NCBI RefSeq assembly: GCF_000018865.1 | Contig: NC_010175.1 | Coordinates: 124,001 to 188,000, forward strand | From: Chloroflexus aurantiacus J-10-fl | GTDB taxonomy: Bacteria > Chloroflexota > Chloroflexia > Chloroflexales > Chloroflexaceae | Direction of reading: 5' to 3' | Length of the DNA: 64,000 bases | In this document: positions 38,312 to 54,105 of the stretch, in pieces | How the letters are laid out: every line of letters begins with the position of its first letter | How positions within the stretch are numbered: position 1 is the stretch's first letter | Position numbers and translations under genes: made by a program | Notes under the pieces: model-generated | Told to the model about the DNA's origin: nothing | What the model saw: only the letters and a program-made list of their open reading frames with translations | Database searches by the model: none

Positions 38312-39511
38312 ATGCGCACTCTAATCTTCACCGGCAAAGGTGGCGTTGGCAAGACAAGTGTCGCCGCAGCAACAGCTCTCCGGGCCGCCGATCGAGGCTT
38401 GAAGACGCTAGTCATGAGCACCGATCCGGCCCACTCGCTGGCCGACTCGCTCGATCTGGAAGGGCCACTCGGCCCGGAACCGGTTCGGATTACCAAAAAC
38501 CTCGATGCGCTTGAAGTGAGCATTTATCACGATATCGAGAGCAACTGGGGTATCGTGCGTGAGCACTTCGCGCAACTGATGGCCGAGCAGGGCGTACAGG
38601 GCATTCTGGCCGACGAGATGAGCGTCCTGCCAGGTATGGAAGAGGCTTTTCCGCTCATCCGCATCAAGAAACACAAAGAGCGTGGCGACTACGATCTCCT
38701 GGTGATCGACTGCGCACCAACGGGAGAAACGCTGCGCCTGCTCTCAGCCCCCGAGACGTTCAAATGGGCAATCAACATGCTACGCGGTGCCGAGCGCTAC
38801 GTCATCAGGCCGTTGATCCGGCCCATGAGCAAGATTACGCCCGGCCTTAACAAAATGGTTGCCCCACCCGAAGTCTATGATGCGGTTGATGAGATGTTCC
38901 GCCAGATGGAGGGGGTAACGGCAACACTGGCCAACCCGCGGGAGACATCGATCCGCCTGGTGATGAACCCGGAAAAGATGGTCATCAAAGAGAGCCAGCG
39001 CGCCTTAACCTACCTGTCGATGTACGGTATGACCGTCGATATGGTAGTGGTGAACAAGATTTTGCCCCTCGATCAGGATAGCGGCTATCTGAACCACTGG
39101 CGCGATGTGCAACAGCGCTATCTCCAGGATGTTGAACATGCCTTCGTGCCGTTGCCTATCCGGCGGGTACCGTACTATCCCGAAGAAGTGGTGGGCCTGG
39201 AGAAGCTACGCCAGATGGGAGATGACATTTACGGCGATATGGATCCAACTGCCGTGCTCTACGACCGGGCACCGCTGGACATTGCCAAAGTTGGTGATAA
39301 ATCGTACCGGGTCAAGATCCGCCTGCCATTCGCTGATGTGTCGCAGCTCGATCTGTATCAGAACGGCGACGAGCTGGTGATACAGATCGGCGACTTCCGG
39401 CGGGTCATTACGCTGCCGACCAGTCTGGCCGGCCTGGAAGCCGGTCAGGCCGAGATGGAGGGTGAATGGTTGATTGTCCCCTTCATGGCGCCGCAAATGG
39501 CGCAACGCTGA
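38312..39511 (+). CDS. ArsA/Get3-family ATPase with C-terminal HSP20-like domain (copy 1)
   Basis: Protein of 399 residues. Walker A is the deviant P-loop FTGKGGVGKTS (residues 5-15), with switch I MSTDPAHSLADSLDL and A-type DCAPTGETLRLLS. These are the hallmarks of ArsA/Get3 ATPases, which bind and release hydrophobic clients or oxyanions in the cytosol. The C terminus (about 330-399) is an alpha-crystallin-like domain (VKIRLPFADVSQLDLYQNGD ... EWLIVPF). No arsenic genes are near; csmA follows after 82 bp. I therefore infer a targeting chaperone for chlorosome proteins. The start at 38312 has GGAAAGG. First gene behind the promoter at 38140. Confidence 0.88.
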   Translation: MRTLIFTGKGGVGKTSVAAATALRAADRGLKTLVMSTDPAHSLADSLDLEGPLGPEPVRITKNLDALEVSIYHDIESNWGIVREHFAQLMAEQGVQGILADEMSVLPGMEEAFPLIRIKKHKERGDYDLLVIDCAPTGETLRLLSAPETFKWAINMLRGAERYVIRPLIRPMSKITPGLNKMVAPPEVYDAVDEMFRQMEGVTATLANPRETSIRLVMNPEKMVIKESQRALTYLSMYGMTVDMVVVNKILPLDQDSGYLNHWRDVQQRYLQDVEHAFVPLPIRRVPYYPEEVVGLEKLRQMGDDIYGDMDPTAVLYDRAPLDIAKVGDKSYRVKIRLPFADVSQLDLYQNGDELVIQIGDFRRVITLPTSLAGLEAGQAEMEGEWLIVPFMAPQMAQR

Positions 39512-39535
39512 GGCAGCCTGAACTGTGGGGTTTCT

Positions 39536-39551
39536 CGGAGGCTTGCCTCCG
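39536..39551 (+). promoter_or_regulatory. Small inverted repeat between ArsA copy 1 and csmA
   Basis: CGGAGGC-TT-GCCTCCG is a compact palindrome 43 bp before the csmA start. It may be an mRNA processing or pausing site; no promoter consensus is visible beside it. Confidence 0.35.
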
Positions 39552-39593
39552 GTGACCTGAATAATGGAGTCCGTTTGATAAGGAGGTGTGTGC

Positions 39594-39836
39594 ATGGCGA
39601 CGAGAGGCTGGTTCTCGGAGTCGTCGGCGCAGGTGGCGCAAATCGGCGACATCATGTTCCAGGGCCACTGGCAATGGGTCTCGAATGCGCTACAGGCCAC
39701 CGCGGCAGCGGTTGACAACATCAACCGCAATGCTTACCCGGGCGTGTCCCGGAGCGGCTCGGGCGAGGGAGCGTTCAGCAGCAGCCCGAGCAACGGCTTC
39801 CGTCCGAAGCGCATTCGCTCGCGCTTCAACCGCTAG
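39594..39836 (+). CDS. csmA: Chlorosome baseplate protein CsmA precursor
   Basis: Precursor of 80 residues, recognised as Chloroflexus CsmA. CsmA forms the paracrystalline baseplate that binds bacteriochlorophyll a and passes energy from BChl c aggregates to the membrane antenna. The N terminus MATRGWFSESSAQVAQIGD and the amphipathic helix with F-Q-G-H25-W26 (H25 is the proposed BChl a ligand) are intact. The mature protein is known to have about 51 residues: the tail after NRNAYPGV (Ser/Gly-rich, then PKRIRSRFNR) is cut off. A very strong ribosome-binding site, AAGGAGGTG, precedes the ATG, fitting an abundant protein, and a stable stem-loop follows the stop. Confidence 0.96.
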   Translation: MATRGWFSESSAQVAQIGDIMFQGHWQWVSNALQATAAAVDNINRNAYPGVSRSGSGEGAFSSSPSNGFRPKRIRSRFNR

Positions 39837-39847
39837 GCTGGCGGGCA

Positions 39848-39879
39848 GGCGTGAGGCGTGCGTTCTGTCGCCTCACGCC
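39848..39879 (+). terminator. Intercistronic stem-loop after csmA
   Basis: GGCGTGAGGC (39848-39857) pairs perfectly with GCCTCACGCC (39870-39879), 12-nt loop, no T-tract. It starts 11 bp after the csmA stop. It more likely protects the csmA 3' end or dampens read-through than fully terminates. Confidence 0.6.
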
Positions 39880-39896
39880 GATCCCTCGGGAGCGTT

Positions 39897-40985
39897 ATGA
39901 TTAACCTGCTCTACTACAGTCATACCACCGTACCGGCTCATCTGGAAGAGATTACGCGACTGGATGTGCTCGATCCTGACGAGCAAGTGCTGGTCGCGAT
40001 AGATGGCGTTTTGGTCGATCAGCAGGGACAGCGGCTGAGCGGCCCAACGCTGCACGATTATTGTCTGATCACCGACTTGCGGGTGATCCTGTGGGCACGA
40101 GATTATGGCCGGCATTTGTGTTATGCCTTTCCATTGCATGAGCTGACGTTGATTGATGGGCGCGGGATTGATCCGATCCACGGCGCAGTGACGATGGGCT
40201 TTAGCGCGCCAGATACCGATGATCAGATTTTTACGCTGACTCTGGTACCACAGGCGTATGTGCCGGCATTGATGGTGTTGTTGCGTACAGCCGCCGAAAC
40301 GGCAAGATCGGCGCTGGCTGCCGGCATCGATGCCCGGCAAGCCGCTCCTGATGTGATGACAGCGCTCGGTGCTGCTATTTATGGTTCCGAAGATGCGTTG
40401 CGCATAGATGAAACTCCATACCGCTGGCCGGGAGGTGCTGCACGTACCCCGGCAGCGCCAAATGCACTCTTTGCGATTGATCCGGCTAACCTGCCGCCAA
40501 ATCAAATCTTTACCGCTGGTCGCCTCGCTCGTTCGGCATGGGACACGCTGCGGCGCACGTTGCGCGAGGCGGATTTGCCATTTGATTTAAGTCCGACCAG
40601 TATTCGTGAATTAACCGATGCTATTCGTGCTGTCAATGATTTGGTTCAGACTGTCGCAAATAATCCGGCAGCTCAACAGATTGCGCTGGCGTTTCTTAAC
40701 CGGCAGATGGGGAATCAGCAGTCAACTGCGCCTTCTCCACCGGTTGAGCCGCCCACGCCTGAAGCAACACCAGCACCGCACCGCTACCACGAGATTCCGT
40801 TGCGCCGACGTGCCACACCCTCTCGCGAACCGGCAATGACTCAGCCGACTGCAACGGCTTCATCTCCATTGAATATCACGGATCGGCGCGAGATTCCGCT
40901 CCGCCGTCGGACAACCCCTCTTCACCGCACGTCGCTGGCAGCGTTGAGTGGATCGGGTGATGCCGATCAAGATCGAACGACATAA
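39897..40985 (+). CDS. PH-like N-terminal domain protein of chlorosome locus (copy 1)
   Basis: Protein of 362 residues, function unknown. The N-terminal 140 residues look like a bacterial PH-type domain (EQVLVAIDGVLVDQQGQRL ... DYCLITDLRVILWARDYGR ... YAFPLHELTLIDG), with an alpha-helical middle. The C terminus is disordered and basic, with the motif EIPLRRR(A/T)TP twice (about 301-310 and 335-344). The same layout is seen in the next gene. PH-like domains often bind membranes or peptides, so an envelope-associated role is possible. The ATG at 39897 has GGGAG. Co-directional with csmA. Confidence 0.6.
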   Translation: MINLLYYSHTTVPAHLEEITRLDVLDPDEQVLVAIDGVLVDQQGQRLSGPTLHDYCLITDLRVILWARDYGRHLCYAFPLHELTLIDGRGIDPIHGAVTMGFSAPDTDDQIFTLTLVPQAYVPALMVLLRTAAETARSALAAGIDARQAAPDVMTALGAAIYGSEDALRIDETPYRWPGGAARTPAAPNALFAIDPANLPPNQIFTAGRLARSAWDTLRRTLREADLPFDLSPTSIRELTDAIRAVNDLVQTVANNPAAQQIALAFLNRQMGNQQSTAPSPPVEPPTPEATPAPHRYHEIPLRRRATPSREPAMTQPTATASSPLNITDRREIPLRRRTTPLHRTSLAALSGSGDADQDRTT

Positions 40986-41027
40986 GTGTTGCAATCATCG
41001 GCGGTCGCAACCGCCCAAGGAGCAGGT

Positions 41028-42371
41028 ATGAGACCATTTCTCGGTGTTAATGTGAGTATGGCCAGCGTCGAAGAGATGCAGCAGCGCGGTTTGCTTGAAG
41101 AAGGCGAGACCCTACTGGCACTGTTCGATGGTACGCTCCTCGACGAACAACGACGTCGCATTGGTGGCCTCGCGCTCGCCGATTTCGTTGCGCTGACCGA
41201 CCGGCGGCTGATTCTGTGGGCGCGTGGGTTTTTCAATGATACTGTTGATGGCTTTCCGTGGAGTGATGTTGATGTGGTTCGTGCCGAGACCTGGGATCCG
41301 TGGCACGGGCGGGTGAGCCTGGCCCTGCGGATACCGGCAACACCACCGCGCAAACGCCGGGTGGCCCTCGGCGAAGTACAGGAAGCCGGTCAGCCGGAGC
41401 GCGTCATTATCAATACGCTCGATTATATGCCGGTTGAGGACGTCGATGTGCTGGCCAAAATGGTGGCCTGGGTTGGTGATCAGGTAGTAGCCGGTGTCAC
41501 CGGTGAAGAACTGATCAAGGCATTTGAAGCAGAATTTCCGGCAGTTGAGCGGAAACCGCTACCGCCATTTTTCCTGGCTTCTGAACCAGCACCACCACCG
41601 ATGCCAGAGCCGGCACCGCAACAACCAAAGAAGAAGCCATGGTGGAAGTTTGGCGCGGCTGATAAGGAAGAGGAAGCAACACCAGCCTCGCCGGGGAACC
41701 TGATTGCGGCTTACGAACGTCAGCGTAGCGGTAGTGGCGTGTCGCCAGAGACACCGCCGGCACCGGTTGGCCCGTTGCCGACACTGCCCGAACAGCCAAA
41801 TATGTACGAGGTGAGTCGTTCGTTGCGCCTGATGCTTGAAGTTCCGCGTGGTCTTGCCCGCGGGATGCGGCGAGCGAGTGAAATCCTGAGTGGCGCAACC
41901 GAGTTGATCAATAACATGCAAGACCCACGGGTACGGCGCAATGCGATGCGTGGTCTCTATTACGCTGCGGCGCAGCAAGAGGCTGAAGGTGGCCCACTGG
42001 CACCGGTTGGACCGGTCGTGCGGGCGGCAGTACGGTTTGCCGAACCCACCGAACAACAATCGGCTGCTGAGCCACCCCAACGGCGGATCGCCGTTCGGGC
42101 AGCAGTCCGTCAATCATCGCCAGCCCCTGCGCCAGAGCCGACGACAACCGCTCCGGCTGCCACAGACAACCCGGCCACCCCGGCGAACCAACCGGTACGG
42201 CGGGCCATCAGTATCCGTCGTTCGGAGACACCTGATAGTGGACAGGATGGGTCTGTGCCGGTGCGACGAATTGTTGTTAATCGCACCGACCGCCCGGCAA
42301 CGGTGAGTGGCAGTGGGACAGGCATCACGCCTGAAACACGTAACGGACACAACGATAGCGATGCGGAATAA
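41028..42371 (+). CDS. PH-like N-terminal domain protein of chlorosome locus (copy 2)
   Basis: Protein of 447 residues related to the preceding one: ETLLALFDGTLLDEQRRRIGG ... DFVALTDRRLILWARGFFND ... DGFPWSDVDVVRAE matches the same PH-like core. A Pro-rich linker (about 180-250) is followed by a helical segment (SRSLRLMLEVPRGLARGMRR) and a disordered tail with repeated short Arg-rich strands (RRIAVRAAVR, RRAISIRRSE, VPVRRIVVNR). Function unknown; it may tether proteins to the chlorosome envelope. Start supported by AAGGAG. Confidence 0.6.
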   Translation: MRPFLGVNVSMASVEEMQQRGLLEEGETLLALFDGTLLDEQRRRIGGLALADFVALTDRRLILWARGFFNDTVDGFPWSDVDVVRAETWDPWHGRVSLALRIPATPPRKRRVALGEVQEAGQPERVIINTLDYMPVEDVDVLAKMVAWVGDQVVAGVTGEELIKAFEAEFPAVERKPLPPFFLASEPAPPPMPEPAPQQPKKKPWWKFGAADKEEEATPASPGNLIAAYERQRSGSGVSPETPPAPVGPLPTLPEQPNMYEVSRSLRLMLEVPRGLARGMRRASEILSGATELINNMQDPRVRRNAMRGLYYAAAQQEAEGGPLAPVGPVVRAAVRFAEPTEQQSAAEPPQRRIAVRAAVRQSSPAPAPEPTTTAPAATDNPATPANQPVRRAISIRRSETPDSGQDGSVPVRRIVVNRTDRPATVSGSGTGITPETRNGHNDSDAE

Positions 42372-42417
42372 GGTAATGGGGTTGGGGTATCACAACACAG
42401 CAGGCACATGAGGAACT

Positions 42418-43641
42418 ATGACGCGCGTCATTATCTACTCCGGGAAAGGTGGCACCGGTAAGACAACCCTCTCGGCGGCAACTGCGGTGATGCTGGCGCA
42501 AGCCGGTCGCCGAACACTGGTGCTGTCGAGCGATCCGGCACACTCGCTGGCCGATGTGATGGGGATCGCGATTAGTCGTGATCGACCAACGCCACTGGCA
42601 CCTCATCTTTATGGCCTTGAGGTGGATACCATTTACGAGTGGCGTCAAAATCTGGGTGGTTTCCAACAATTCGTAACTGCCACCTATTCGGCCCGAGGGA
42701 TCGAACGCTCGACGGCTGCTGAGCTGGCTAATCAACCCGGCCTCGATGAAATTCTGGCTCTGCAACGAGTAATGGACGAGGCCCAGAGTGGACGTTGGGA
42801 CGCGATAGTGCTTGATACAGCACCTACCGGTAATACCCTGCGGCTCCTGGCGTATCCCGAGATGATTATCGGTGGCGAAGCCGGCAAACGCCTCTTCCGG
42901 GTGTATCGTGGAATCGCGAATGTTGCGCGTCCTTTCCGCCGCGATCTGCCCGACGACCGCTTCTTTGAAGAGGTTGGTAAACTGCTGGAGCGGATGGATC
43001 AACTGGCCAATTTTTTAGTCAGCTCGAATGTATCGGTACGGCTAGTATTGAATCCTGAACGATTACCCCTGCTCGAAACCCGACGGGCGTACACCTTCCT
43101 GAGCCTGTATGGCTTGCAATTGGATGCCGTGTTGGTTAATAAGATTTTGCCCCACCGCACCGATCTCGGCCCATACTTTGACTACTGGGTAAATCTCCAG
43201 CAGCAGTACCTGGCCGAAATTGAAAGCAGTTTTGCCCCAACACCAATCTTCCGCACGGTGTTGCAGGGTGGCGAGCCGATTGGGGTTGAGGCGCTGCTAC
43301 ACGTGGGCCGGCTGACGTTTGGCGAGGTTGATCCGGGCGCGCTGTTATACGACGAACGTCCGATCTGGCTGGAGCAATGGAGTGATGATGGCGAGCCTGG
43401 TCAGTACGATCTCTGTCTGCGCCTGCCATTTCTTGATCCCGGTGAGGCAATTGAGGTCAGCCACAGTGGCCCCGACTTGACGATTGTCGTTGGTCGCCTG
43501 GAGCGTACCATCGCCTTGCCGCGCGTTTTGTACGACTGCACCCTTGGTGATTATCGGTACGAAGATGGAGTGTTGCGCCTGGCCTTCTACGAGGCAAATG
43601 TCGTGCGCACCGCCAATAAGCAGCAAGTTGAAGCAGCCTGA
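42418..43641 (+). CDS. ArsA/Get3-family ATPase with C-terminal HSP20-like domain (copy 2)
   Basis: Protein of 407 residues. P-loop IYSGKGGTGKTTLSAATA at residues 4-21, switch I LSSDPAHSLADVMG, and LDTAPTGNTLRLLAYPEM are all intact. The C-terminal domain (about 335-395) repeats the HSP20-like pattern (LCLRLPFLDPGEAIEVSHSG). It probably dimerises with itself or with a neighbouring paralogue to carry hydrophobic proteins, using ATP. It is closer to the P-loop-less copy downstream in position than to copy 1. AGGAA lies before the ATG. Confidence 0.87.
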   Translation: MTRVIIYSGKGGTGKTTLSAATAVMLAQAGRRTLVLSSDPAHSLADVMGIAISRDRPTPLAPHLYGLEVDTIYEWRQNLGGFQQFVTATYSARGIERSTAAELANQPGLDEILALQRVMDEAQSGRWDAIVLDTAPTGNTLRLLAYPEMIIGGEAGKRLFRVYRGIANVARPFRRDLPDDRFFEEVGKLLERMDQLANFLVSSNVSVRLVLNPERLPLLETRRAYTFLSLYGLQLDAVLVNKILPHRTDLGPYFDYWVNLQQQYLAEIESSFAPTPIFRTVLQGGEPIGVEALLHVGRLTFGEVDPGALLYDERPIWLEQWSDDGEPGQYDLCLRLPFLDPGEAIEVSHSGPDLTIVVGRLERTIALPRVLYDCTLGDYRYEDGVLRLAFYEANVVRTANKQQVEAA

Positions 43642-43712
43642 GCAAACTGGCTTGCTCAGGGTCGTATGGTTGATTATGCCGGTTGCCTTGAGCGCCGGTC
43701 GCGAGCACTCGC

Positions 43713-44816
43713 ATGCGCACACTGATCTTTACTGCTCATCATCAACTCCAACAGAGCGCGGCTGCGCTCGCAACAGCCTGTCACGCCGCCCGTCGCGGCT
43801 ATCGCACGCTGCTGGCGTCGAGTGGGCCAGGACACCTGATTGGGCATCTGTTGCACCAGAGCCTCGGCGCCCGCCCACTCGAACTTGAACCGAATCTCGC
43901 GGCAATGGAAATCCATCCCCACGAGGAGGTCGCACGTCGTTGGGAACAGGTGCGCCCCTCGCTTCGGAGTGGGTTGGTTGCCCGTTTGCGTGACCTCGGC
44001 CCCGATGAATTGCCCGCTTTTCCCGGTATTGATGCGGTGGCAGCAATGCTGGTTGCCGAACGTGCCCGGCAGTCAGGGCGCTTCGACCTGCTGATCCTTG
44101 ATGGCCCGGCACCCGATGCACTGATCCGGGCACTGACCCTACCGGATGTGTTGCGTTGGGCAGTCCGTCTCATTTTCGGCCTCGACCGGGGGCCGGGAAA
44201 ATCACGTGCTTCTCAGGAACAGGCAATGATCCCGGCGGCTATTCTGGCCCCAAGCGCCACTGCCCCCCTGCAGGAATTGCGCATTGAGCTGGAGACCCAA
44301 CGGGCACGGCTGGAAACCGAAAGCGGTGCACGGGTGCGCATGGTTGTGCTGCCACCAGAGTTGCGCCTGCCGCCACTACGCTCGGCTTTAACCGCCTTTG
44401 GCCTTTATGGAATGGCCAGTGATGAAGTCATTGTGAATGGCTCACCCGATCAGGTTGATGATGAGAGCCGCCACGACTTTAGTCACGAAACCAGTCGGGC
44501 CAGACCGTTGCTGCGGATTGGACAGCTTGATCTAACGCCAACTGATCGGGATTCATGGGCTTTGCGCGGGGCAGCACTCTACCGCGATGGCGACATCTTT
44601 GCGACTGAGCCGCCGCGTCCACAAAGCAGCGAGCGAGACATGCGCCTCCTGATTCCATTCCTCGATCCCAAAGCGCTTGACATTGCTGTGGCCAGTGAAG
44701 AAGTCGTTGTCCAGCTCGGACAGATGCGTCGCCATGTACTCCTGCCTGGCCTGGTGGATGGTGGTCGGTTACGGGCCAGAGTTGAAGGGGAACAGCTTCG
44801 GTTATGGGTAGAATAG
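43713..44816 (+). CDS. ArsA-like pseudo-ATPase (copy 3, P-loop lost)
   Basis: Protein of 367 residues that aligns over its length with copies 1 and 2 but lacks the catalytic elements. The N terminus reads MRTLIFTAHHQLQQSAAALA where copy 1 has MRTLIFTGKGGVGKTSVAAA. Switch I is degraded (ASSGPGHLIGHLL), and the A-type motif reads LDGPAPDALIRALTLPDVL in place of DCAPTGETLRLL. The C-terminal HSP20-like domain persists (MRLLIPFLDPKALDIAVASE). The frame is intact, with no stops, so it is probably a functional non-hydrolysing partner, not a pseudogene. It could form heterodimers with an active copy. Confidence 0.8.
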   Translation: MRTLIFTAHHQLQQSAAALATACHAARRGYRTLLASSGPGHLIGHLLHQSLGARPLELEPNLAAMEIHPHEEVARRWEQVRPSLRSGLVARLRDLGPDELPAFPGIDAVAAMLVAERARQSGRFDLLILDGPAPDALIRALTLPDVLRWAVRLIFGLDRGPGKSRASQEQAMIPAAILAPSATAPLQELRIELETQRARLETESGARVRMVVLPPELRLPPLRSALTAFGLYGMASDEVIVNGSPDQVDDESRHDFSHETSRARPLLRIGQLDLTPTDRDSWALRGAALYRDGDIFATEPPRPQSSERDMRLLIPFLDPKALDIAVASEEVVVQLGQMRRHVLLPGLVDGGRLRARVEGEQLRLWVE

Positions 44817-44830
44817 CGAAGGGGGCGCGT

Positions 44831-45838
44831 ATGTCAGTCCTTGCCCAACCTGTTCCGTTTGAGCGACCGCCGGCGCGACCGGTTGATGCGCCACCAACGG
44901 CAAAGTATGTCGCCTACGCGAATGAAGTGGCAACCCGCCTTGCCGGTCGCCTGAGTGGCCGTGAGCGGCGACGACTGGAAGGCGAACGAGCGCTCCTGGC
45001 CCGTGCCCGATTTATTGAGTTGAACGGTGTTGTGCATCACTATCAAGACGTTGGACCTTCTGATGGTCAGCCACTCGTCCTGATCCACGGTTGGGACTGT
45101 TCGTCGTTTTGGTGGCACCACGTGGTTGATCCGCTGGCTCAAGCCGGCTATCGCGTGATCAGCTACGACTTAAAGGGACATGGCTTTTCGGATACCGATC
45201 CACGTCAGAATTATACGGTGGCCGGCTTTAGCGCCGATCTCCAGGCGTTAATCCGCGCACTCGATCTCGGTGCGGTGCATCTGGCCGCTTTTTCGCTCGG
45301 TGCGTTCGTCGGGCTACACGTCGCCGCACATCACCCGGATATGGTACGTTCGCTCATCTTCTTCAACTTCAGCCTGCTACCGTACAACAAACTGGCATCA
45401 GCGTTTGTGCCGCGTCTGCTCGATGTCGTATTTAATCGAGTGCTACGACCAATCGAACGGCGAAACCTGTGGTGGCTCCCGTTCATCTACGCACGACTGG
45501 TCATGGCGCAACATACACCGTCAATCAGCGACATTCGACTCGGCACGCTAGGGCTACGCTACTGTGATCCGGCAGCAGTCCGGGTATCGGCAACCGAATT
45601 GTCGCGCCCGGAGATTCTCAATGCAGTGGCCGAACAGGCACGCATGATCCGCCAGCCATTGTTGCTGGTAGCCGGCGCGAATGATCCCATTATGCGTCCG
45701 GCTGATGGCCGCAAACTGGTTGCATTAACTCCAAACGGCTCGTTCCTGGAAGTACCAAAATGTGGTCATTTGATTTTATTTGAGTTGCCCGAACAGGTTA
45801 TTCAGATTATGCGCCTCTTTTTGAAAAGTGTTCGCTAG
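44831..45838 (+). CDS. Alpha/beta hydrolase (chlorosome locus, first)
   Basis: Protein of 335 residues with a 60-residue N-terminal extension, then an alpha/beta-hydrolase fold: oxyanion segment LVLIHGWDCSSFWW, nucleophile S155 in AAFSLGAFVG (the first Gly of G-x-S-x-G is Ala), acid in VAGANDPIM and catalytic His in PKCGHLILFE. No signal peptide. The substrate is unknown; lipid, wax-ester or esterified-pigment hydrolysis are possibilities in this setting. The ATG at 44831 with GAAGGGGGC is preferred to the in-frame start at 44804, which overlaps the preceding gene. Confidence 0.78.
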   Translation: MSVLAQPVPFERPPARPVDAPPTAKYVAYANEVATRLAGRLSGRERRRLEGERALLARARFIELNGVVHHYQDVGPSDGQPLVLIHGWDCSSFWWHHVVDPLAQAGYRVISYDLKGHGFSDTDPRQNYTVAGFSADLQALIRALDLGAVHLAAFSLGAFVGLHVAAHHPDMVRSLIFFNFSLLPYNKLASAFVPRLLDVVFNRVLRPIERRNLWWLPFIYARLVMAQHTPSISDIRLGTLGLRYCDPAAVRVSATELSRPEILNAVAEQARMIRQPLLLVAGANDPIMRPADGRKLVALTPNGSFLEVPKCGHLILFELPEQVIQIMRLFLKSVR

Positions 45839-45850
45839 GGAGGGTCGTCT

Positions 45851-46732
45851 ATGCAATTGTTGCTTCGTTCCGGCGGTCAGCAATTGATCATTGACATGGA
45901 ACGTGCCGATGACCGTCCGCTGACGGTGGGCCAGTATACGTACCGTCCACGCCGCCTGGCCGGCAAGGTGCGACGGCTGGCGACCAAAATGTGGCCCGAT
46001 CTGCCGCCGACAGTGCTCGCCGAACGGCTCACCTTCGAGGCCATGGATACCGTTCGCGACACTGCCTGGAGCGATAGCGGGAGTTTCTCACCACGTTCCG
46101 GTTCAGTAGTCCTGCTGGGTCGCTGGGACGAAGATGGTAGTGTTGGTATTGCACTCCACGAACTGGCCCACGAGATGCATCTGTACCACGGGGGATACGA
46201 CGATAGCGACGGTGTGGTACGTGAAGCCGTGGCGATGCTGGCCGAGCGAGAAGCCGGTCTGCGCCGCACCTTTGAACGCGAACCGTACCACTCGGCATGT
46301 CAGTTAGTCGAGCAGTTGGAGTCGTTGTCTGCTTTCAATCGCCTCTCATTTCCCAAGCGTTGGGCAGAGGTGATCAGCGTAACCTCGATGGTTGGATTGG
46401 CCGATCTGGTGAACTATTACCTTGATCGGAGTGAACGCCTGGGGCTGGCCCGCTGGCTGGATCGGTTAACCAAAAATATTGACGTGCGCGATCAACTGCT
46501 GGCCCGGTTAGCAACCACATCATTACGCTACAGTCTGGCATTACGCCGGGTATTGATCAAAAAACTCGTGCGCTGCAAGCCCGAAACACCGGTGGAACAG
46601 CTACTCTACGTGCTCGACTCGATAGCAACACTTGATCGTCGCTATCCCAACGATGATCTGGAACAGATTATCAACTTCTGCTTTGCACCGTATGTGCCGC
46701 AACGTCGCCGTCTCTTTGCCTTTGGCTCGTGA
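45851..46732 (+). CDS. Putative zinc metallopeptidase with HELAH motif
   Basis: Protein of 293 residues without a family I can name. It carries ALHELAHEMH (H103, E104, H107), the HExxH zinc-binding motif, and 18 residues after H107 a Glu in VVREAVAMLAE (E125), at about the spacing at which gluzincins have their third ligand (EG-x-A-x-x-x-E). The N-terminal 60 residues are basic; the C terminus is helical. No signal peptide, so it would act in the cytoplasm. Proximity to csmA makes it a candidate for C-terminal trimming of CsmA; that is inference. Starts 12 bp after the preceding gene with GGGAGGG. Confidence 0.65.
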   Translation: MQLLLRSGGQQLIIDMERADDRPLTVGQYTYRPRRLAGKVRRLATKMWPDLPPTVLAERLTFEAMDTVRDTAWSDSGSFSPRSGSVVLLGRWDEDGSVGIALHELAHEMHLYHGGYDDSDGVVREAVAMLAEREAGLRRTFEREPYHSACQLVEQLESLSAFNRLSFPKRWAEVISVTSMVGLADLVNYYLDRSERLGLARWLDRLTKNIDVRDQLLARLATTSLRYSLALRRVLIKKLVRCKPETPVEQLLYVLDSIATLDRRYPNDDLEQIINFCFAPYVPQRRRLFAFGS

Positions 46733-46747
46733 TAGAGAGGAGCGGGT

Positions 46748-47464
46748 ATGAATCGCTTCAATGAGGACAACGACACCGTTCGCTGGCTACCCGGATTTGT
46801 CCGCCGATGGTTTGGTCTGACCGATGAAACGCCACAGCGCCGAGAGGCCGCCGGCCCCGGCTGGATGCCCGGCTGGCTCCAGCGCTTTTTCGGGCTGACC
46901 TACGAAGAACCGGTACGCTACACCGATGAAGGGACCCCGTCGGTGTCATCACGCACAACCTACACACCACCGCCACGCTCGTACACACCTGGTACCCCCT
47001 CGTTTACACCGACACCACGCGGGTTTGCGCCGGCGAGTTATCGACCAACGAGCGGTGAAGGTACGCCTTCGACACCGACACAACGCAGCCTGGCCGGTGA
47101 TGAATTACCAACCGATATTCAGCCCATCGGCTATCTCTTACGGTCGTATGCCCGTGGTGCTCTGCCGCCGCAAGGACTGGAAGCCTTCACCCGCGAAGTG
47201 CGTACCACTACCGAAAAGGTCTTCAACTTCTACGGCCACTGGCTGCGCTTCCAGACCGAGGAACTGTTCCGTATCGGTGGCGATCTGTGCAACGCTGTCA
47301 TCAATGCCTTGCCCGGTGAACCGGCCAAACCGCAGAACCAGACGATTCGTCGGATCAAGGTCGTAGCCGATAACGGCAACGGCAGCAGCAACGCCACATC
47401 GACTGCGCAAACCGGTTCAGCCGAGACCACGACTGAACCAGAGCGCTCTGAGGATAAAGAGTAA
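46748..47464 (+). CDS. Chlorosome-locus protein with GHW motif
   Basis: Protein of 238 residues, unrecognised. Residues 13-25 and 39-51 are two copies of an aromatic amphipathic helix (WLPGFVRRWFGLT and WMPGWLQRFFGLT) that may lie on a lipid surface. A Pro/Thr/Ser-rich linker (65-115) leads to a helix with N-F-Y-G-H164-W at 160-165 and continuing LCNAVINALPGE, reminiscent of CsmA (M-F-Q-G-H25-W, then AAVDNINRNAYPG). The tail is disordered. It could be a minor chlorosome envelope or baseplate protein. GAGAGGAG precedes the ATG. Confidence 0.6.
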   Translation: MNRFNEDNDTVRWLPGFVRRWFGLTDETPQRREAAGPGWMPGWLQRFFGLTYEEPVRYTDEGTPSVSSRTTYTPPPRSYTPGTPSFTPTPRGFAPASYRPTSGEGTPSTPTQRSLAGDELPTDIQPIGYLLRSYARGALPPQGLEAFTREVRTTTEKVFNFYGHWLRFQTEELFRIGGDLCNAVINALPGEPAKPQNQTIRRIKVVADNGNGSSNATSTAQTGSAETTTEPERSEDKE

Positions 47465-47467
47465 GCT

Positions 47468-48154
47468 ATGACTCGTCCGGTGGTGATCATGGGCGGGTGG
47501 CTATCGTCACCCGCCGATTACTTCGGAATGGCGCGCATCCTGGCTGCGCCACCCTACAATCGCATCGTCTACGTTGTCAATTTCAGTCGGCTCGACTGGC
47601 TGGCACTGCGTGACCCCAACTTTGGCCCGGCGCTTGATGCCCTGGCAGCAACGGTGCAGATTGCCTTAAGCGAAACTGGCGCCGATACAATTGACTTAAT
47701 CGGACACAGCGCCGGTGGCCGGATTGCCCGTGCGTATCTGGCCGATGAGCCATACCAGGGCGTTCGTTATGCCGGACACAAGGTGGTAGCAAGTTTGACA
47801 ACGTTAGGTACTGCCCACGCCACCTCAGAGGTATGGGTCAAGCAATTTGCCGACTGGCTCGAAGCCCGTTATCCAGGTGCGGCATTTCCCCACATTAGAT
47901 ATCGGGCTGTTGCGGGGCGTAGCGTGCGTGGGCGGCGCTTTGGTTCACCGGAGGAGATGATTGCCTATCGTTCCTATGAAGTCTCGTTCGGCAACGGCAA
48001 TCTCATCGGCGACGGTATCGTGCCGACCGCAGCTTGCTACCTGGCCGGTGCCGACAACCTGATCCTGGAAGGTGCCCGTCACGCACCGTACAACGCACCG
48101 GCAACCTGGTACGGGGCACGTGACGTGGTACCACTCTGGTTTGATGCCGGGTGA
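47468..48154 (+). CDS. Lipase-like alpha/beta hydrolase (chlorosome locus, second)
   Basis: Protein of 228 residues, a compact alpha/beta-hydrolase with the N-terminal PVVIMGGWLSSPADYFGM, canonical nucleophile elbow LIGHSAGGRIAR (S81) and C-terminal His in EGARHAPYN. It resembles PGAP1/class-2 lipase-like proteins of phototrophs. Probably acts on a lipid or ester; substrate unknown. Separated by 3 bp from the preceding gene, and its stop overlaps the next open frame. Paralogue of the next gene. Confidence 0.78.
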   Translation: MTRPVVIMGGWLSSPADYFGMARILAAPPYNRIVYVVNFSRLDWLALRDPNFGPALDALAATVQIALSETGADTIDLIGHSAGGRIARAYLADEPYQGVRYAGHKVVASLTTLGTAHATSEVWVKQFADWLEARYPGAAFPHIRYRAVAGRSVRGRRFGSPEEMIAYRSYEVSFGNGNLIGDGIVPTAACYLAGADNLILEGARHAPYNAPATWYGARDVVPLWFDAG

Positions 48155-48162
48155 GGGTAGGT

Positions 48163-48876
48163 ATGGTTCGTCCATTGGTCATCATCGGTGGGTATCTGAC
48201 CAGTCCCAACGACTTTAGCGCCCTGGCCCAGGCGCTATCGCAGCCCCCATTTGATTTTCGGGTCTTCGTGACCCCCATCGGACGCCTGCGCTGGGCCTTG
48301 ACCCGCGACTGGGATTTTCGCCCGGTATTGCGGATTGTCCGCGAGACGGTCGCGCAGGCTCTGCACGAAACGGGTGCCGAGACCGTCACGATTCTGGCGC
48401 ACAGTGTAGGTGGAACCGTCGCCCGCATGTATCTTGGCGATCAGCCCTACAAAGGCGAGATTTATGGCGGACACCGCTTCGTCGATCACCTCATCATGCT
48501 CGGTACACCGCACCACAGTCAGGAATTCTGGACCCGGCAGACTGTCGGCTTCACCAATCGCAGTTATCCAGGCGCATATTACCGCCACATTCGCTACACC
48601 TCGATCATTGGGCGAAGCATTCAGGCCAATCGCAAAGGACGCTGGATTGAACGGATGGCCTACAACAGTTATGTCATGATCGATGGTCCTGCCGGCGCTC
48701 AAGCGTGGGGAGATGGAATTACAACGCTCCGTTGTGCAGCGTTGGCTGGAGCTGAATATCTGGTCGTGCCCGGCCTTCATCACTCACCCATCCACGGACG
48801 TCCCTGGTACGGCGACCCGGATGGGTTGCGAGAGTGGCAACGCGTGTTAATGAGATCATCACCACTTGTTGTTTGA
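48163..48876 (+). CDS. Lipase-like alpha/beta hydrolase (chlorosome locus, third)
   Basis: Protein of 237 residues, a tandem paralogue of the preceding hydrolase: PLVIIGGYLTSPNDFSAL, nucleophile ILAHSVGGTVAR (S81, first Gly of the elbow changed to Ala) and C-terminal GLHHSPIHGRPWYG. The duplicated pair suggests two related ester substrates or a heterodimer. The start at 48163 has GAGGGTAGG upstream; a GTG at 48151 overlapping the previous stop is possible. The second transcription unit begins right after it. Confidence 0.76.
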   Translation: MVRPLVIIGGYLTSPNDFSALAQALSQPPFDFRVFVTPIGRLRWALTRDWDFRPVLRIVRETVAQALHETGAETVTILAHSVGGTVARMYLGDQPYKGEIYGGHRFVDHLIMLGTPHHSQEFWTRQTVGFTNRSYPGAYYRHIRYTSIIGRSIQANRKGRWIERMAYNSYVMIDGPAGAQAWGDGITTLRCAALAGAEYLVVPGLHHSPIHGRPWYGDPDGLREWQRVLMRSSPLVV

Positions 48877-48900
48877 AATGTCGCCGATTTGTACTATAAT
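48873..48900 (+). promoter_or_regulatory. Promoter of the bchU-bchK-csmM-csmN half
   Basis: TTGAAA (48873-48878) and perfect TATAAT (48895-48900) at 16-bp spacing. Transcription would begin near 48907, at or just before the ATG at 48910, so the first mRNA may be leaderless. The -35 overlaps the stop of the preceding hydrolase. Confidence 0.65.
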
Positions 48901-48909
48901 ACAAATTAC

Positions 48910-49410
48910 ATGAACTCAACGCACTTTGACCGAATTATTCTGTACGTCATGGCCGCTGTGTCGGGGGTGTCGCTCGCATGTTATACCGCAGTGCTCTATC
49001 TCTGCCGGCAGGAAGCTCGTGGATCGCAACCAACACGATCAACGCTGCGCACCCGTCTTGCCAATCTGGCGCACGCTCTCGATTGGTTGATGAACCTGTT
49101 GATTGCCCTGGTTGGCATTGGGCGACTCTTTCGCGAAGAGCAATTTGGCGGACAACACCAGCCGCGCTGGTTGAAGATCTATTTTATGATCACCGGCCCT
49201 CTACCGACTATCGGTATGGTCGGCGCGATGATCACCGGACATCGCTGGGAAAAAACGATGCACCATCATCCGCATCAGCGACGGTTACATCGCATCTTTG
49301 CCTGGGTCGGCTATTTCAGTTGGTGGCTCAGCTTTATTCCGATCTTCTTCCAGCCCTGGCTCAACCGAATGGCTGCCAGGACCAATGACTCGACTTCAGT
49401 TCTTTCATAG
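48910..49410 (+). CDS. Small integral membrane protein of chlorosome locus
   Basis: Protein of about 166 residues with four predicted TM segments (IILYVMAAVSGVSLACYTAV, LMNLLIALVGIGRLF, IYFMITGPLPTIGMVGAMIT, IFAWVGYFSWWLSFIPIFF) and a His-rich cytoplasmic loop (MHHHPHQRRLHR). No family recognised. The ATG at 48910 lies only 10 nt after a TATAAT, implying a leaderless mRNA; the next in-frame ATG (48949) would cut TM1. It opens the unit leading into bchU and may anchor pigment enzymes or a chlorosome attachment site. Confidence 0.6.
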   Translation: MNSTHFDRIILYVMAAVSGVSLACYTAVLYLCRQEARGSQPTRSTLRTRLANLAHALDWLMNLLIALVGIGRLFREEQFGGQHQPRWLKIYFMITGPLPTIGMVGAMITGHRWEKTMHHHPHQRRLHRIFAWVGYFSWWLSFIPIFFQPWLNRMAARTNDSTSVLS

Positions 49411-49440
49411 TGGCACACATCTGTGCACGAGGGGGAATGC

Positions 49441-50505
49441 ATGACAACGGTACCATCAGTGGATGCGACAAAAACGAACGGGACAGATCTGACCCAGCAC
49501 GATCTGTTTGCGGCGACCAACCGCGCCTACGATATGGTGTTTAAAGGCACGGTTGACTTCTTCGTGATTAAAGCCGCCAAAGATTTGGGGTTGTTCGACC
49601 TGCTGGCATCTGCCCCGCGCACCCTGGCCGACTTAGCAACGCTTACCGAGACGGTACCTCCGCGCCTCGAGAAGTTTCTGATTACCATGGAACAGATTGG
49701 TCTGGTAACGCGGCAGGGTGACGCCTGGCAGTTGACGCCGTTCGCCGATCAATTTTTCGCCGATCCCGAACGCCATCGCAATATGACGATGGTACCATTC
49801 GTTGATTACATTGCTGATTTGATCGAAAATTACTATTTGCGACTTGCCGATGTCGTGCGTGGCAAGGTCGATTTTACCAGCATCGTGCCACACCCACCCC
49901 GCACCCGTGAAGACAGTCTGTTCTACGAAACCTTACACCGCTCGAACATTCAACTGTTTACTGAATTGTTGATCAAGCGCGCCCGGCTTGCCGATGTGCA
50001 GACCTTAATCGATGTTGGTGGCGGCATTGGTGATATTGCTGCCGCCCTCTGCCAGGCATTCCCCCAACTCAAAGTGACCCTGATCAACCTGCCCAGCGCC
50101 CTTGATCTGGTACGTGAAAATGTGGCGGCCAAAGGGCTAGCCGACCGCATCACTCCCGTCGCTATTGACATGTACCGCGAGCCATACCCACCTGGCGACG
50201 CCGTCCTCTTCTCGCGCATTCTCTACCCGATGAATGCGCAGTTCTGCACGATGTTGCTCAGGAAGGCTTACGATGCCCTGCCCAGCGGCGGACGAATTCT
50301 GATTCTGGATATGGTGATCAGTGATCCAAACCATCCCAACTACGACTACCTCACCCACTACCTGTGCGCGATTGGGATGGGCTTCTCGGTACTGGAATTC
50401 AAAGATCATGCCGTCTATCCAGATTTGTTGCGCCAGGTTGGATTTACCGATGTCACTCTCGATGAAGGGTACGAACACGTATTGTATCAGGCGGTCAAGC
50501 CGTAA
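49441..50505 (+). CDS. bchU: Bacteriochlorophyllide C-20 methyltransferase
   Basis: SAM-dependent methyltransferase of 354 residues: N-terminal dimerisation/winged helix (VIKAAKDLGLFDLLASAPRT) and C-terminal Rossmann domain with the SAM-binding loop LIDVGGGIGDIAAAL (D191-G-G-G). It belongs to the O-methyltransferase-like family that contains BchU, the enzyme that methylates C-20 and so turns a BChl d precursor into BChl c, red-shifting the chlorosome. Position directly before bchK and csmMN supports this strongly. The start at 49441 has GAGGGGG. Other members of the family (BchQ/BchR are radical SAM) do not fit. Confidence 0.9.
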   Translation: MTTVPSVDATKTNGTDLTQHDLFAATNRAYDMVFKGTVDFFVIKAAKDLGLFDLLASAPRTLADLATLTETVPPRLEKFLITMEQIGLVTRQGDAWQLTPFADQFFADPERHRNMTMVPFVDYIADLIENYYLRLADVVRGKVDFTSIVPHPPRTREDSLFYETLHRSNIQLFTELLIKRARLADVQTLIDVGGGIGDIAAALCQAFPQLKVTLINLPSALDLVRENVAAKGLADRITPVAIDMYREPYPPGDAVLFSRILYPMNAQFCTMLLRKAYDALPSGGRILILDMVISDPNHPNYDYLTHYLCAIGMGFSVLEFKDHAVYPDLLRQVGFTDVTLDEGYEHVLYQAVKP

Positions 50506-50563
50506 CGCGGAGTCGTGGTTTTGTGACCGGTGCAGATTCTGCCCGGCAATGCGGTAAGCAATT

Positions 50564-51481
50564 ATGATTTCGACTGAACAACGTGTCTCGCTCAGCCGAA
50601 AAATCCGGGCACATATTGAACTTGCCGATCCGGTGACATGGATCTCGCCAGTGCTGGTCTGCTTTTGTGGCGCCCTGGCATCAGGCTACGAGCGAGGTTT
50701 TGATTGGACGCGACCCGATCACTGGTGGCTTATGCTACTGGGGGCATTAATGACCGGCCCGTTGGGTACCGGCTTCAGCCAGAGTATCAACGACTACTTT
50801 GATCGTGATCTCGACGCGATCAACGATCCGCAACGGCCCATTCCTGCCGGTATCATCTCACTGAACGAAGCCCGCTGGAACTGGATCGTACTCGGTGCGG
50901 CCACCCTTCTCGTCTCACTGGTCTTCGGCAATCCACTCATCGTTTTGTTTGCTGTGGTCGGGATCGTGTTGTCGGTGATCTACAGCATGCCGCCAATCAA
51001 GCTCAAGAAGCACTTCTGGCTTGGGCCGCCGGCAGTGGGGCTAGGCTATGTCAGTATGAGCTGGATGGCCGGGCATCTAATCTTTGCCCCACTGACCTGG
51101 CAGAGCGTGGTGGTAGCGTTGATCAATGGCGGTCTGGCAGCCGGCTTGCTCTTCCTCAACGACATCAAGAGCGTTGAGGGCGACCGGAAGCTGGGTCTGC
51201 AATCGCTCACGGTAGCAATCGGGGTGAAACGCACCCTGATCGTTGCCTACGTCACCATTAACAGCTTCGAGGCAATGCTGATGATCCTGGCGTTGATTTG
51301 GGGACAGTACTGGGTAGCGGCATTTATGTTTCTGGCCCTGGTGGCACCGATCTACAATCAGATCAAACTCTACCAGGAACCAACCCAGCAAAACTATGTT
51401 CGCTATCTACTGGCCTCAAATCCATTCGTCGCGTTGATTCAGATTATTTCGGGTTTTCTCGTAGGCGGCTATTTTGGCTGA
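50564..51481 (+). CDS. bchK: Bacteriochlorophyll c synthase
   Basis: UbiA-superfamily membrane prenyltransferase of 305 residues with about eight TM segments. It esterifies bacteriochlorophyllide c with its long-chain alcohol, the last step of BChl c synthesis. The first Asp-rich motif NDYFDRDLDAINDPQRP starts at N76, and the second is LNDIKSVEGDRKLGLQS. Both are typical of ChlG/BchG/BchK rather than MenA. Neighbours bchU and csmM/csmN indicate BChl c (bchK) rather than BChl a (bchG). The csmM start follows 19 bp after its stop. Confidence 0.92.
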   Translation: MISTEQRVSLSRKIRAHIELADPVTWISPVLVCFCGALASGYERGFDWTRPDHWWLMLLGALMTGPLGTGFSQSINDYFDRDLDAINDPQRPIPAGIISLNEARWNWIVLGAATLLVSLVFGNPLIVLFAVVGIVLSVIYSMPPIKLKKHFWLGPPAVGLGYVSMSWMAGHLIFAPLTWQSVVVALINGGLAAGLLFLNDIKSVEGDRKLGLQSLTVAIGVKRTLIVAYVTINSFEAMLMILALIWGQYWVAAFMFLALVAPIYNQIKLYQEPTQQNYVRYLLASNPFVALIQIISGFLVGGYFG

Positions 51482-51500
51482 CCGTATCTAAGGAGGTGCG

Positions 51501-51794
51501 ATGATGACAGAGAGTGAAGGCGAGGTGCGGGTACGCAGCGTACCGGTGCGACGCAACGACAGCTTCGTTGAGTCGGCGATGGAATTCGGAGGTGGGATTG
51601 TTCGGCTCGGTTTCTCGATCTTTACCCTCCCCCTGGCTCTGCTGCCGCCGGAGTCGCGCCAGCACATGCACAATGCTACCAAAGAGTTGATGTACGCCTT
51701 TGCTTCACTACCACGCGATTTCGCCGAGATTGCGGGTAAGAGCATCGAGAAATGGGCGGAAGAGGGTGAAGAGCCAAAAGGAGAGGCGAAGTAG
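51501..51794 (+). CDS. csmM: Chlorosome envelope protein CsmM
   Basis: Small protein of 97 residues, the 11-kDa chlorosome protein. After a charged N terminus comes an amphipathic/hydrophobic helix (GGGIVRLGFSIFTLPLALLP) followed by a helical pair (MYAFASLPRDFAEIAGKSIEKW) and a charged tail. It resides in the lipid monolayer around the chlorosome. It is clearly similar to CsmN downstream (LxLLPxxSR ... FPKELA/LPRDFA), so the two are paralogues. A strong AAGGAGGTG site; ATGs at 51501 and 51504 are both possible. Confidence 0.9.
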   Translation: MMTESEGEVRVRSVPVRRNDSFVESAMEFGGGIVRLGFSIFTLPLALLPPESRQHMHNATKELMYAFASLPRDFAEIAGKSIEKWAEEGEEPKGEAK

Positions 51795-51832
51795 GGCCAT
51801 TTGCTCTCTTCAGAGCAGAGGAGGAGTGTAGT

Positions 51833-52270
51833 ATGAGCAATGAGACAACAAACGAGCGCGATGGGCTGTTTGAGATGGCAGCCGGCTTCGTCGGTGGTGC
51901 TACACGGATTGGATTGACGGTAGCATCCGTACCGCTGGTCTTGCTGCCGCGCAACTCGCGCCGCCGGGTACGACGGGCGATGGCTGAAGTGGCAATGGCC
52001 GTTGTAGCTTTTCCCAAAGAGCTGGCCAACGTCTCTGAACGGGTGGTTGACGACATCTTTGCCGCCGATCCACCCCAGATCAACCTGCCCAGCCCGCAGC
52101 GTGTCGGCGAACAGGTGCGTTCGTTTACCGAGCGCCTGGCCCGTGCGGCAGAAGAGTTGGGCACCAGCTTTAGCCGGGCTGCCGGTCGTGCCGCTGATGC
52201 CGTCGAACAGGGTGCGGCGAAGGTTGATGAGTGGGTCGAAACACCACCCAAGACACCACCGGCGCCGTGA
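51833..52270 (+). CDS. csmN: Chlorosome envelope protein CsmN
   Basis: Protein of 145 residues, the '18-kDa' chlorosome protein. The N-terminal 75 residues match CsmM: hydrophobic helix GGATRIGLTVASVPLVLLPR, then VAMAVVAFPKELANVSERVV. The C-terminal half is an Ala-rich amphipathic helix (RAAEELGTSFSRAAGRAADA) and a Pro-rich end. It coats the chlorosome monolayer together with CsmM. GAGGAGTG lies before the ATG. A long hairpin follows and probably ends the unit. Confidence 0.9.
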   Translation: MSNETTNERDGLFEMAAGFVGGATRIGLTVASVPLVLLPRNSRRRVRRAMAEVAMAVVAFPKELANVSERVVDDIFAADPPQINLPSPQRVGEQVRSFTERLARAAEELGTSFSRAAGRAADAVEQGAAKVDEWVETPPKTPPAP

Positions 52271-53649: not shown

Positions 53650-54105
53650 ATGATTGTCCAGGAACAGTTTGTCTCAATTAAAGCGCCACCCGCTACCGTC
53701 GAGCGCTACCTGACCGATCCGCAACTGATGATGGAGTGGCGATCACCGTTAGTCGTACTTGACCCGATTGAAGGCGAATTGATGACTCTGGGGAGCAAGC
53801 ACAAACTGCGCTTAAAATCACTGGCGCTGGCCGGCTCGACCTACACCGTTACTGAACGCGATAGTAACCATATCCTGCTCACTATCGATGGCCTCTGGCG
53901 TGGGCAAGAACTCTGGCGCTGGTTTGCCGATGGCGACCGCACGATTGTGCAAAATCGGGTTGAGTATGAAGTGCCCGATCCGAGTCTGCGCGTCTTTGTT
54001 GTCGGTCTTGGGCAAATCTTTGCTTCACTGGACATGCGGATTCAGCTCGACCGTCTGCGCATGCTGATTGAGGGGAAGGGCCAGCCCGCAGCGCAGGCTC
54101 GCTAG
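53650..54105 (+). CDS. SRPBCC (START-like) domain protein
   Basis: Protein of 151 residues with the helix-grip fold pattern of SRPBCC proteins (SIKAPPATVERYLTDPQLMM-type start, long C-terminal helix QIFASLDMRIQLDRLRMLIE). Such domains bind lipids or other hydrophobic ligands in a deep cavity. Ligand unknown. It follows the NDH-2 gene after 15 bp with GGAGAG, so the two are probably co-transcribed. Confidence 0.72.
   Translation: MIVQEQFVSIKAPPATVERYLTDPQLMMEWRSPLVVLDPIEGELMTLGSKHKLRLKSLALAGSTYTVTERDSNHILLTIDGLWRGQELWRWFADGDRTIVQNRVEYEVPDPSLRVFVVGLGQIFASLDMRIQLDRLRMLIEGKGQPAAQAR

Follow-up and report, generated by a model that had tools for sequence, protein, structure and literature searches.

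A conserved gene set beside csmA in Chloroflexus aurantiacus is a candidate chlorosome-building module with Get3d-type and PH-like proteins

Introduction

In the passages of PMC9316378 on chlorosome formation, two competing models are still listed and the only early components named are Csm proteins. In Chloroflexus aurantiacus, csmA, bchU, bchK, csmM, csmN and csmP correspond to Caur_0126, 0137, 0138, 0139, 0140 and 0142 (PMC3150298). Here we analyse the genes packed around them in a 64,000-nucleotide stretch of the C. aurantiacus J-10-fl genome (the window; bases 124001-188000 of a single contig of 5,258,541 bases), for which an initial annotation had proposed a joint role in chlorosome assembly. 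Literature searches by locus tag (Caur_0127-0130, 0132 and 0133) and by topic, with subscription papers and supplements outside their scope, returned no role for these genes.

Three of them encode proteins resembling Get3d, which is conserved in green sulfur and nonsulfur bacteria and linked to photosynthesis; partners of Get3d are expected in photosynthetic bacteria, and the role of its alpha-crystallin domain has been called unclear (Barlow et al. 2023, PMC10248533). In small heat-shock proteins, alpha-crystallin domains are docked by IxI/V peptides (PMC6119766). We propose, with a probability of roughly 0.5, that the genes from arsA1 to csmP form a module dedicated to chlorosome building in Chloroflexota, in which Get3d-type chaperone or targeting proteins would work with PH-domain adaptors. 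The dedication of the gene set to chlorosomes, as the initial annotation had suspected, is itself well supported by its conservation next to csmA, its absence from csmA-free genomes and the core kept by a distant chlorosome bearer.

Results

The gene set keeps its order beside csmA

From arsA1 to csmN, all genes lie on the + strand with intergenic gaps of -13 to +76 bases, in line with the close packing first described. We compared 29 csmA loci of relatives, of which 3 are cut by contig ends, leaving 26 untruncated loci from 11 genera. The order arsA1-csmA-PHa-PHb-arsA2-abh1-HExxH-GHW-lipA is kept in all 26, and arsA3 stands within it in 25. Two further genes that had been listed with the set do not belong to this core, since 16 of the 26 loci have lipB (48151-48876), encoding a second lipase-like protein, as a gene of its own and 11 have a match to the gene of a small membrane protein (48889-49410). 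Within the genus, the set lies next to csmA (39588-39836; chlorosome baseplate protein precursor, PF02043 E 3e-33) in 7 of 7 loci.

The gene set tracks chlorosomes, not phototrophy

In a panel of 61 genomes, csmA (PF02043) is present in 30, all of the window's own family. The PHb profile, which also catches PHa, matches 30/30 csmA-bearing and 0/31 csmA-negative genomes. The HExxH profile matches 29/30 csmA-bearing genomes and a single csmA-negative one, G023. This genome is 71% complete and its cluster is in pieces ending at contig ends, so that its csmA probably lies in an assembly gap; once it is set aside, HExxH is found in 0 of 30 csmA-free genomes. In G019, the sole csmA-bearing genome without an HExxH match, a contig end lies some 1 kb away from csmA, and the genes from lipA onward are on another contig.

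A type II reaction centre (PF00124) is encoded by 45 of the 61 genomes, namely 29 of the 30 csmA-bearing ones, G023 and 15 of the remaining 30 that are csmA-free. These 15, of which six belong to the same family as the window, hold neither PHb nor HExxH, indicating that the set tracks chlorosomes and not phototrophy. One csmA-bearing genome (G009, 88% complete) has no PF00124 match. ArsA1 is 76-100% identical in six cluster-bearing family members, and its best match in the 30 csmA-free genomes reaches 38-42% identity, two of them having none. In 400 genomes drawn from the phylum, each scored on its top 3 or 6 candidates only, PHb and HExxH were found in one and the same group of 22, each member of which bears csmA; among the 358 unlisted misses there may be genomes unchecked for csmA.

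The expected absence from chlorosome-less relatives, presumably including Roseiflexus, thus holds for PHb, HExxH and the ArsA1 type among the csmA-free phototrophs and non-phototrophs tested in the order, but is less strict for the lipase family. The lipase profile matches 11/11 cluster-bearing versus 2/19 csmA-free genomes (G030, E 2.3e-61; G056, weakly, E 1.3e-4) and is therefore less exclusive than PHb or HExxH. The G030 match, on a contig of 3.6 kb (L116, G030:C841), is related to lipB (62%) and may be real or a contaminant. A further lipase relative adjoins another Get3d gene away from the cluster in three places (L115, 7600-9523; G023:C250; G019:C46), which suggests that a Get3d-lipase pairing recurs in csmA-bearing genomes.

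A distant chlorosome-bearing lineage shares the core

Beyond the panel, csmA was searched for in the class only (present in 35 of 158 genomes), where it was found outside the window's family only in G085 and G086. G085 matches Ca. Chlorohelix allophototropha, from a different order than the window, and G086 belongs to the same family as G085. Ca. Chlorohelix allophototropha is a type-I-reaction-centre phototroph with chlorosomes, in which the passages of PMC10972752 report, besides csmA, just two homologues of chlorosome proteins from C. aurantiacus. Both genomes hold arsA1-csmA-PH-PH in the order seen in the window, with the arsA1 gene (59-60% identity in the protein) directly before csmA and the PH genes directly after it; the ArsA1-CsmA-PH-PH unit is thus conserved between the Ca. 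Chlorohelix lineage and Chloroflexus. Away from csmA, both encode relatives of the HExxH protein (E 1.4e-50 and 1.1e-55) and of lipA/lipB (E 9.6e-63 and 1.4e-50), together with arsA2 orthologues (57% and 58% identity), and in the fragmented G086 these three are on contigs other than that of csmA. Since they are kept at a distance from csmA, linkage alone does not explain the co-occurrence. The predicted co-occurrence with csmA accordingly reaches another order for the core, although part of it lies far from csmA there.

In G086, a divergently oriented bchK-like gene (33%; L098:12991-14007) adjoins arsA1-csmA. CsmA itself differs in the two Chlorohelix-type genomes (L096:9777-10022 and L098:15619-15918), where DGWWMWV stands in place of the GHWQWV or GHWRW of the others; both lack the conserved histidine of GHW, presumably the BChl a ligand.

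Three Get3d-type proteins, one without a P-loop

ArsA1 (38312-39511), ArsA2 (42418-43641) and ArsA3 (43713-44816) all carry the Get3/ArsA ATPase domain PF02374 (E 4e-93, 1.1e-67 and 8.7e-25, respectively), followed by a C-terminal alpha-crystallin, or HSP20-like, domain (PF17886, ArsA_HSP20; E 2.9e-23, 1.2e-18 and 1.4e-7, each above cut-off). The longest reading frame of arsA1 opens at 38267; the conserved Met is at 38312. The deviant Walker A P-loop GKGGxGKT is intact in 13/13 ArsA1 and 12/12 ArsA2 representatives. The description of three ArsA/Get3-type proteins is therefore right for the family but not for the activity: as the P-loop is absent in 10/10 genus representatives of ArsA3, this protein, which keeps its alpha-crystallin domain, is probably not an ATPase but a derived pseudo-ATPase. 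No CXXC zinc motif was found in 35 ArsA sequences, as in Get3d, and the cut-off of the NCBIfam Get3d model NF050088 was not reached by ArsA1 or ArsA3, the two scanned.

In a maximum-likelihood tree of 36 ArsA proteins, the ArsA1 clade (98/98) takes in the csmA-linked copies of the Chlorohelix-type genomes and the ArsA2 clade (100/100) further copies of theirs; the remaining copies of these genomes fall elsewhere. The neighbours of ArsA3 in the tree are degenerate copies of csmA-free relatives, in a region for which the program warns of long branches. Three csmA-free phototrophs, G030, G020 and G016 (L146, L147 and L148), encode a Get3d-like protein with a degenerate P-loop and 32-35% identity to ArsA3.

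These patterns bear on the idea that the genes have other roles and stay by csmA through inertia, a reading already disfavoured and, in our judgement, very improbable. Synteny among related genomes can persist without shared function, and Get3d-type domains are widespread, occurring in 59 of the 61 panel genomes (5-9 copies in csmA-bearing ones, 0-5 in csmA-negative ones). Yet the order is kept across 11 genera, the genes are absent along with csmA inside the same family, ArsA1 and ArsA2 form clades of their own, and the relatives of HExxH, arsA2 and the lipase are retained in G085 and G086 though away from csmA.

PHa and PHb carry arginine-flanked motifs in their tails

PHa (39858-40985) and PHb (40986-42371) had been listed as PH-like, which structure prediction and structure search bear out for PHa and a profile match, as its paralogue, for PHb. 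The AlphaFold2 model of PHa (mean pLDDT 61) has a confident domain of seven strands (residues 44-131) and a helix (132-154), that is, the seven-strand barrel closed by a C-terminal helix of the PH-domain superfamily; residues 299-375 have pLDDT below 50. Its top structural match is 6b3y (Foldseek E 1.5e-5; VIA Z 12.5, rmsd 4.5 over 155), and bacterial PH domains also match (3b77, Z 10.3; 3hsa, Z 10.0, rmsd 3.6 over 118). PHb has no PDB sequence match at E 1, and no Pfam or NCBIfam family was assigned at E 0.01 to PHa, PHb, the HExxH protein or the GHW protein.

The disordered tail of PHa contains two EIPLRRR motifs, and the PHb tail four arginine-flanked IxI/V motifs. With 14 sequences each, 15 of the 16 conserved tail columns in PHa and 11 of 12 in PHb fall in arginine-flanked hydrophobic-x-hydrophobic islands. 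A simple R[IV]x[IV] count gave 0 in PHa, because of its EIPLRRR form, and took in non-tail stretches; it was replaced by a tail-limited count with arginine or lysine flanks in genus representatives, compared with 1000 shuffles. PHa tails hold 26 motifs in 14 rows versus 2.5 when shuffled (reached by 0/1000), one row (g7) being a broken reading frame that scored 0. For PHb the count is 47 in 14 rows versus 5.5 (0/1000), the shuffle control including a double-counted G086 row without which 45 motifs in 13 rows remain. The GHW protein has 6 in 12 rows versus 1.6 (8/1000). CsmP C-termini, which end in QRIxI/V or QKINV in representatives of four other genera but not in Chloroflexus itself, have 4 in 7 rows versus 0.1 (0/1000). 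The PHa and PHb tails and some GHW and CsmP proteins thus carry arginine-flanked IxI motifs, a feature that we report here as new; peptides of this type are the ones that dock on alpha-crystallin domains.

The motif recurs in the first PH protein after csmA of the distant lineage, as KRLPIRRK in G085 and RRLAVRGG in G086. A third PH protein of G085, encoded on a chromosome other than that of csmA (L121:8351-10294), has the C-terminal sequence QPKRIKLGKK. A set of 534 mechanically called open reading frames (ORFs), taken from the window and from 23 further stretches of its genome, is topped by PHb with 4 tail-type motifs; two or more occur in 12 of the ORFs, PHa and PHb included. Elsewhere in the window (4314-6603), three short - strand ORFs (4314-4544, 4858-5088 and 6301-6603) share SRRLALPV and SRRLRITME, which hints at a repeated element. 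CsmM had appeared similar by eye, with an N-terminal VRVR, but was dropped as a carrier at a count of 1 in 13 versus 1.0 shuffled; no IxI-type motif was found in CsmN or CsmA. By analogy with small heat-shock proteins, the PHa and PHb tails may dock on the beta4/beta8 groove of the ArsA alpha-crystallin domains.

A different use of the same proteins would be a ParA/MinD-like positioning or attachment of chlorosomes, the nucleotide cycles of the ATPases placing or partitioning them on the membrane and PHa and PHb acting as adaptors that recognise baseplate and membrane. ArsA proteins share the deviant-Walker-A class with MinD and ParA, ArsA1 gives weak matches to MinD/ParA models, PH folds suit membrane adaptors, and arginine-rich tails could stimulate such ATPases. 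However, ArsA1 fits the GET3/ArsA models of NCBIfam far better than those of ParA or MinD, all three ArsA proteins have the Get3d alpha-crystallin domain and one of them lacks the nucleotide site, and we consider positioning quite unlikely.

A predicted zinc protease, hydrolases and the remaining genes

The HExxH protein (45851-46732) is a predicted gluzincin-type zinc metalloprotease. H103, E104, H107 and E125 are invariant in 16/16 sequences, G085 and G086 included, and E125 would be the third zinc ligand. Its model (pLDDT 92) finds M4/M30 gluzincins in the top rows of a VIA listing that leaves room for further families, vibriolysin (Z 8.9, rmsd 3.4, 167 aligned) and lugdulysin (Z 8.8, rmsd 4.7, 200 aligned); Foldseek returned nothing under E 0.001, and PDB sequences gave only weak matches (E 0.24 and above). 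An SGSG[DE] motif is shared by CsmA (RSGSGE; 10 of 13 rows) and the PHa tail (SGSGDA; 8 of 14 rows), and in CsmA we take it to lie close to the propeptide cleavage site. In the 534 ORFs, a set that does not include csmA, the motif occurs in 3, one being PHa itself; as a common protease site of CsmA and PHa it is only suggestive, and we do not retain it.

The GHW protein (46748-47464) is of low complexity, with a conserved RGALPPQG core and an RRIKV-type motif in some genera. The tripeptide after which it was named is not conserved in its orthologues, which have FYxxW or similar in other genera, so that the name does not hold for the family and a role as a second CsmA-like pigment binder was rejected. 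Pfam recognises the three ArsA proteins, CsmA, the three alpha/beta hydrolases already proposed, a bchU-type methyltransferase and a bchK-type UbiA protein among the window's proteins. Among the hydrolases, Abh1 (44804-45838) has PcaD and BchO among its nearest NCBIfam models, all below cut-off, and LipA (47468-48154) has a weak PGAP1/palmitoyl-thioesterase resemblance (GHSAGG).

The known genes follow: bchU (49423-50505; PF00891) and bchK (50564-51481; PF01040), both as in PMC3150298, then csmM (51501-51794) and csmN (51833-52270), identified by the gene order in the same source and by orthologues. CsmM and CsmN have one hydrophobic segment each, of borderline transmembrane length (KD19 1.60 and 1.61). 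The cluster does not end at 52270, as first drawn, but continues to 54105 with an NDH-2-like pyridine nucleotide-disulphide oxidoreductase gene directly after csmN (52465-53634, +) and csmP (53650-54105, +; Caur_0142 by order, PMC3150298), whose product belongs to the Polyketide_cyc2 family of Pfam, 'Polyketide cyclase / dehydrase and lipid transport'. A bchU match is lacking in several clusters that have csmA and bchK (L018, L023, L027 and L108), which might belong to bacteriochlorophyll d producers. In one locus (L022, G008), csmN is followed by a second gene like bchK (61%), which lies on the opposite strand; in two others (L028 and L029), csmM is accompanied by an additional, diverged csmM-like match (26% and 33%).

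This gene content could also point to lipid or pigment handling, with Get3d chambers and PH domains supplying the growing chlorosome with lipids, wax esters or bacteriochlorophyll c, and hydrolases processing the cargo. Three alpha/beta hydrolases, bchU and bchK stand in one run, CsmP belongs to a lipid-transport family, Abh1 resembles BchO below cut-off, lipA is present in 26/26 loci with relatives in G085 and G086, and a ligand the size of a phospholipid co-purifies in the chamber of AtGet3d (PMC10248533). On the other hand, lipB is patchy (16/26), and the unit beside csmA in G085 and G086 consists of the ATPase and PH proteins and no hydrolase; we regard this reading as unlikely.

Discussion

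Taken together, these results make the gene set a group of strong candidates for the chlorosome-building machinery and provide a short, ranked list of them. In the mechanism that we favour, Get3d-mediated delivery with PH-domain adaptors, the ATPases ArsA1 and ArsA2 would carry hydrophobic envelope proteins, for example CsmM and CsmN, in shielded form to the lipid monolayer as it grows. Their dead paralogue ArsA3 may act as a structural partner. PHa and PHb may bind the membrane or the monolayer via their PH-like domains and, since their tails carry several arginine-flanked IxI/V motifs, could recruit the Get3d proteins by fitting the alpha-crystallin groove. Chloroflexus CsmA presumably undergoes C-terminal processing, and the HExxH protease would be the best local candidate for removing the propeptide, while the lipase-like proteins might adjust envelope lipids or wax esters. 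The individual jobs first suggested for the set, namely envelope-protein delivery, CsmA trimming and lipid handling, are thus compatible with the folds, and we put forward the Get3d clients, the docking partners and the protease substrate in the same conditional sense.

Several points weigh against this proposal. Its support comes from sequence comparison and predicted structures; beyond its PH-like domain, PHa is poorly modelled (mean pLDDT 61), and the fold match of the HExxH protein is moderate (VIA Z 8.9; no Foldseek match below 0.001). The alpha-crystallin domain of Get3d is described as being without typical oligomerisation features (Barlow et al. 2023, PMC10248533), and an IxI groove in it is therefore an assumption. 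The tail motif is no general client tag, since CsmM, CsmN and CsmA are not enriched for it and neither the window's own CsmP nor the second PH protein of G085 (802 aa) has one. The motif shuffles ignore relatedness among the sequences, which makes recurrence across lineages the stronger argument. In G085 and G086 the GHW protein was not found, and abh1, csmM and csmN were looked for in fetched stretches only rather than genome-wide, abh1 giving one generic 24% match there. The lipase family has one copy in the csmA-free G030 and a further copy elsewhere in several csmA-bearing genomes. Finally, a scan of genome contigs with Chloroflexus-derived csmA patterns gave 29 loci, all titled as members of Chloroflexota/Chloroflexi; the comparison is confined to this phylum, with green sulfur bacteria outside its range.

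A bolder version of the proposal, which we hold only tentatively and think more doubtful than probable, is that the set is an ancient chlorosome assembly line of Chloroflexota that predates the split of the type I and type II reaction-centre lineages, with ArsA1-CsmA-PHa-PHb, ArsA2 and HExxH as its core and an RR-IxI/V peptide code. In such a code, Get3d proteins would be drawn to the chlorosome envelope by the multivalent tails of the PH adaptors, and of CsmP in some genera, acting on three different alpha-crystallin domains, of which one belongs to a dead ATPase. If true, it would give the alpha-crystallin domain of Get3d a function.

Set beside known systems, each part of the locus has a counterpart from which it departs. 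The cluster csmA-bchUK-csmMNP described in Chloroflexus (Tang et al. 2011, PMC3150298, Fig. 4C legend) contains the same csm and bch genes, with the others coloured as uncharacterized or non-photosynthetic; the passages of Tang et al. give the unnamed genes neither a role nor a fold assignment or phyletic test. Thermolysin-like gluzincins (M4, M30) share the HExxH motif and the downstream invariant Glu and provide the best VIA rows, whereas the HExxH protein has no convincing PDB sequence relative. The bacterial PH-domain proteins 3hsa, 3dcx and 3b77 share the PH-like fold of PHa (Z 9.5-10.3), but the proteins found here have long RR-IxI tails and no Pfam or NCBIfam assignment. A scaffold that binds the beta4/beta8 pocket of alpha-crystallin domains through IPV motifs is known in BAG3 with HSPB8/HSPB2 (PMC6119766); PHa and PHb are other proteins in another context, and their docking is predicted. 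Lastly, Get3d (AtGet3d and NosGet3d All4481; NF050088; PMC10248533) combines, like ArsA1-3, a Get3/ArsA ATPase with a C-terminal alpha-crystallin domain and has no CXXC. Unlike known Get3d, ArsA1 and ArsA2 form clades that were found in chlorosome bearers only, their genes accompany csmA, ArsA3 is devoid of a P-loop, and candidate partners are encoded alongside, which makes PHa and PHb concrete candidates for the partners that Get3d is expected to have.

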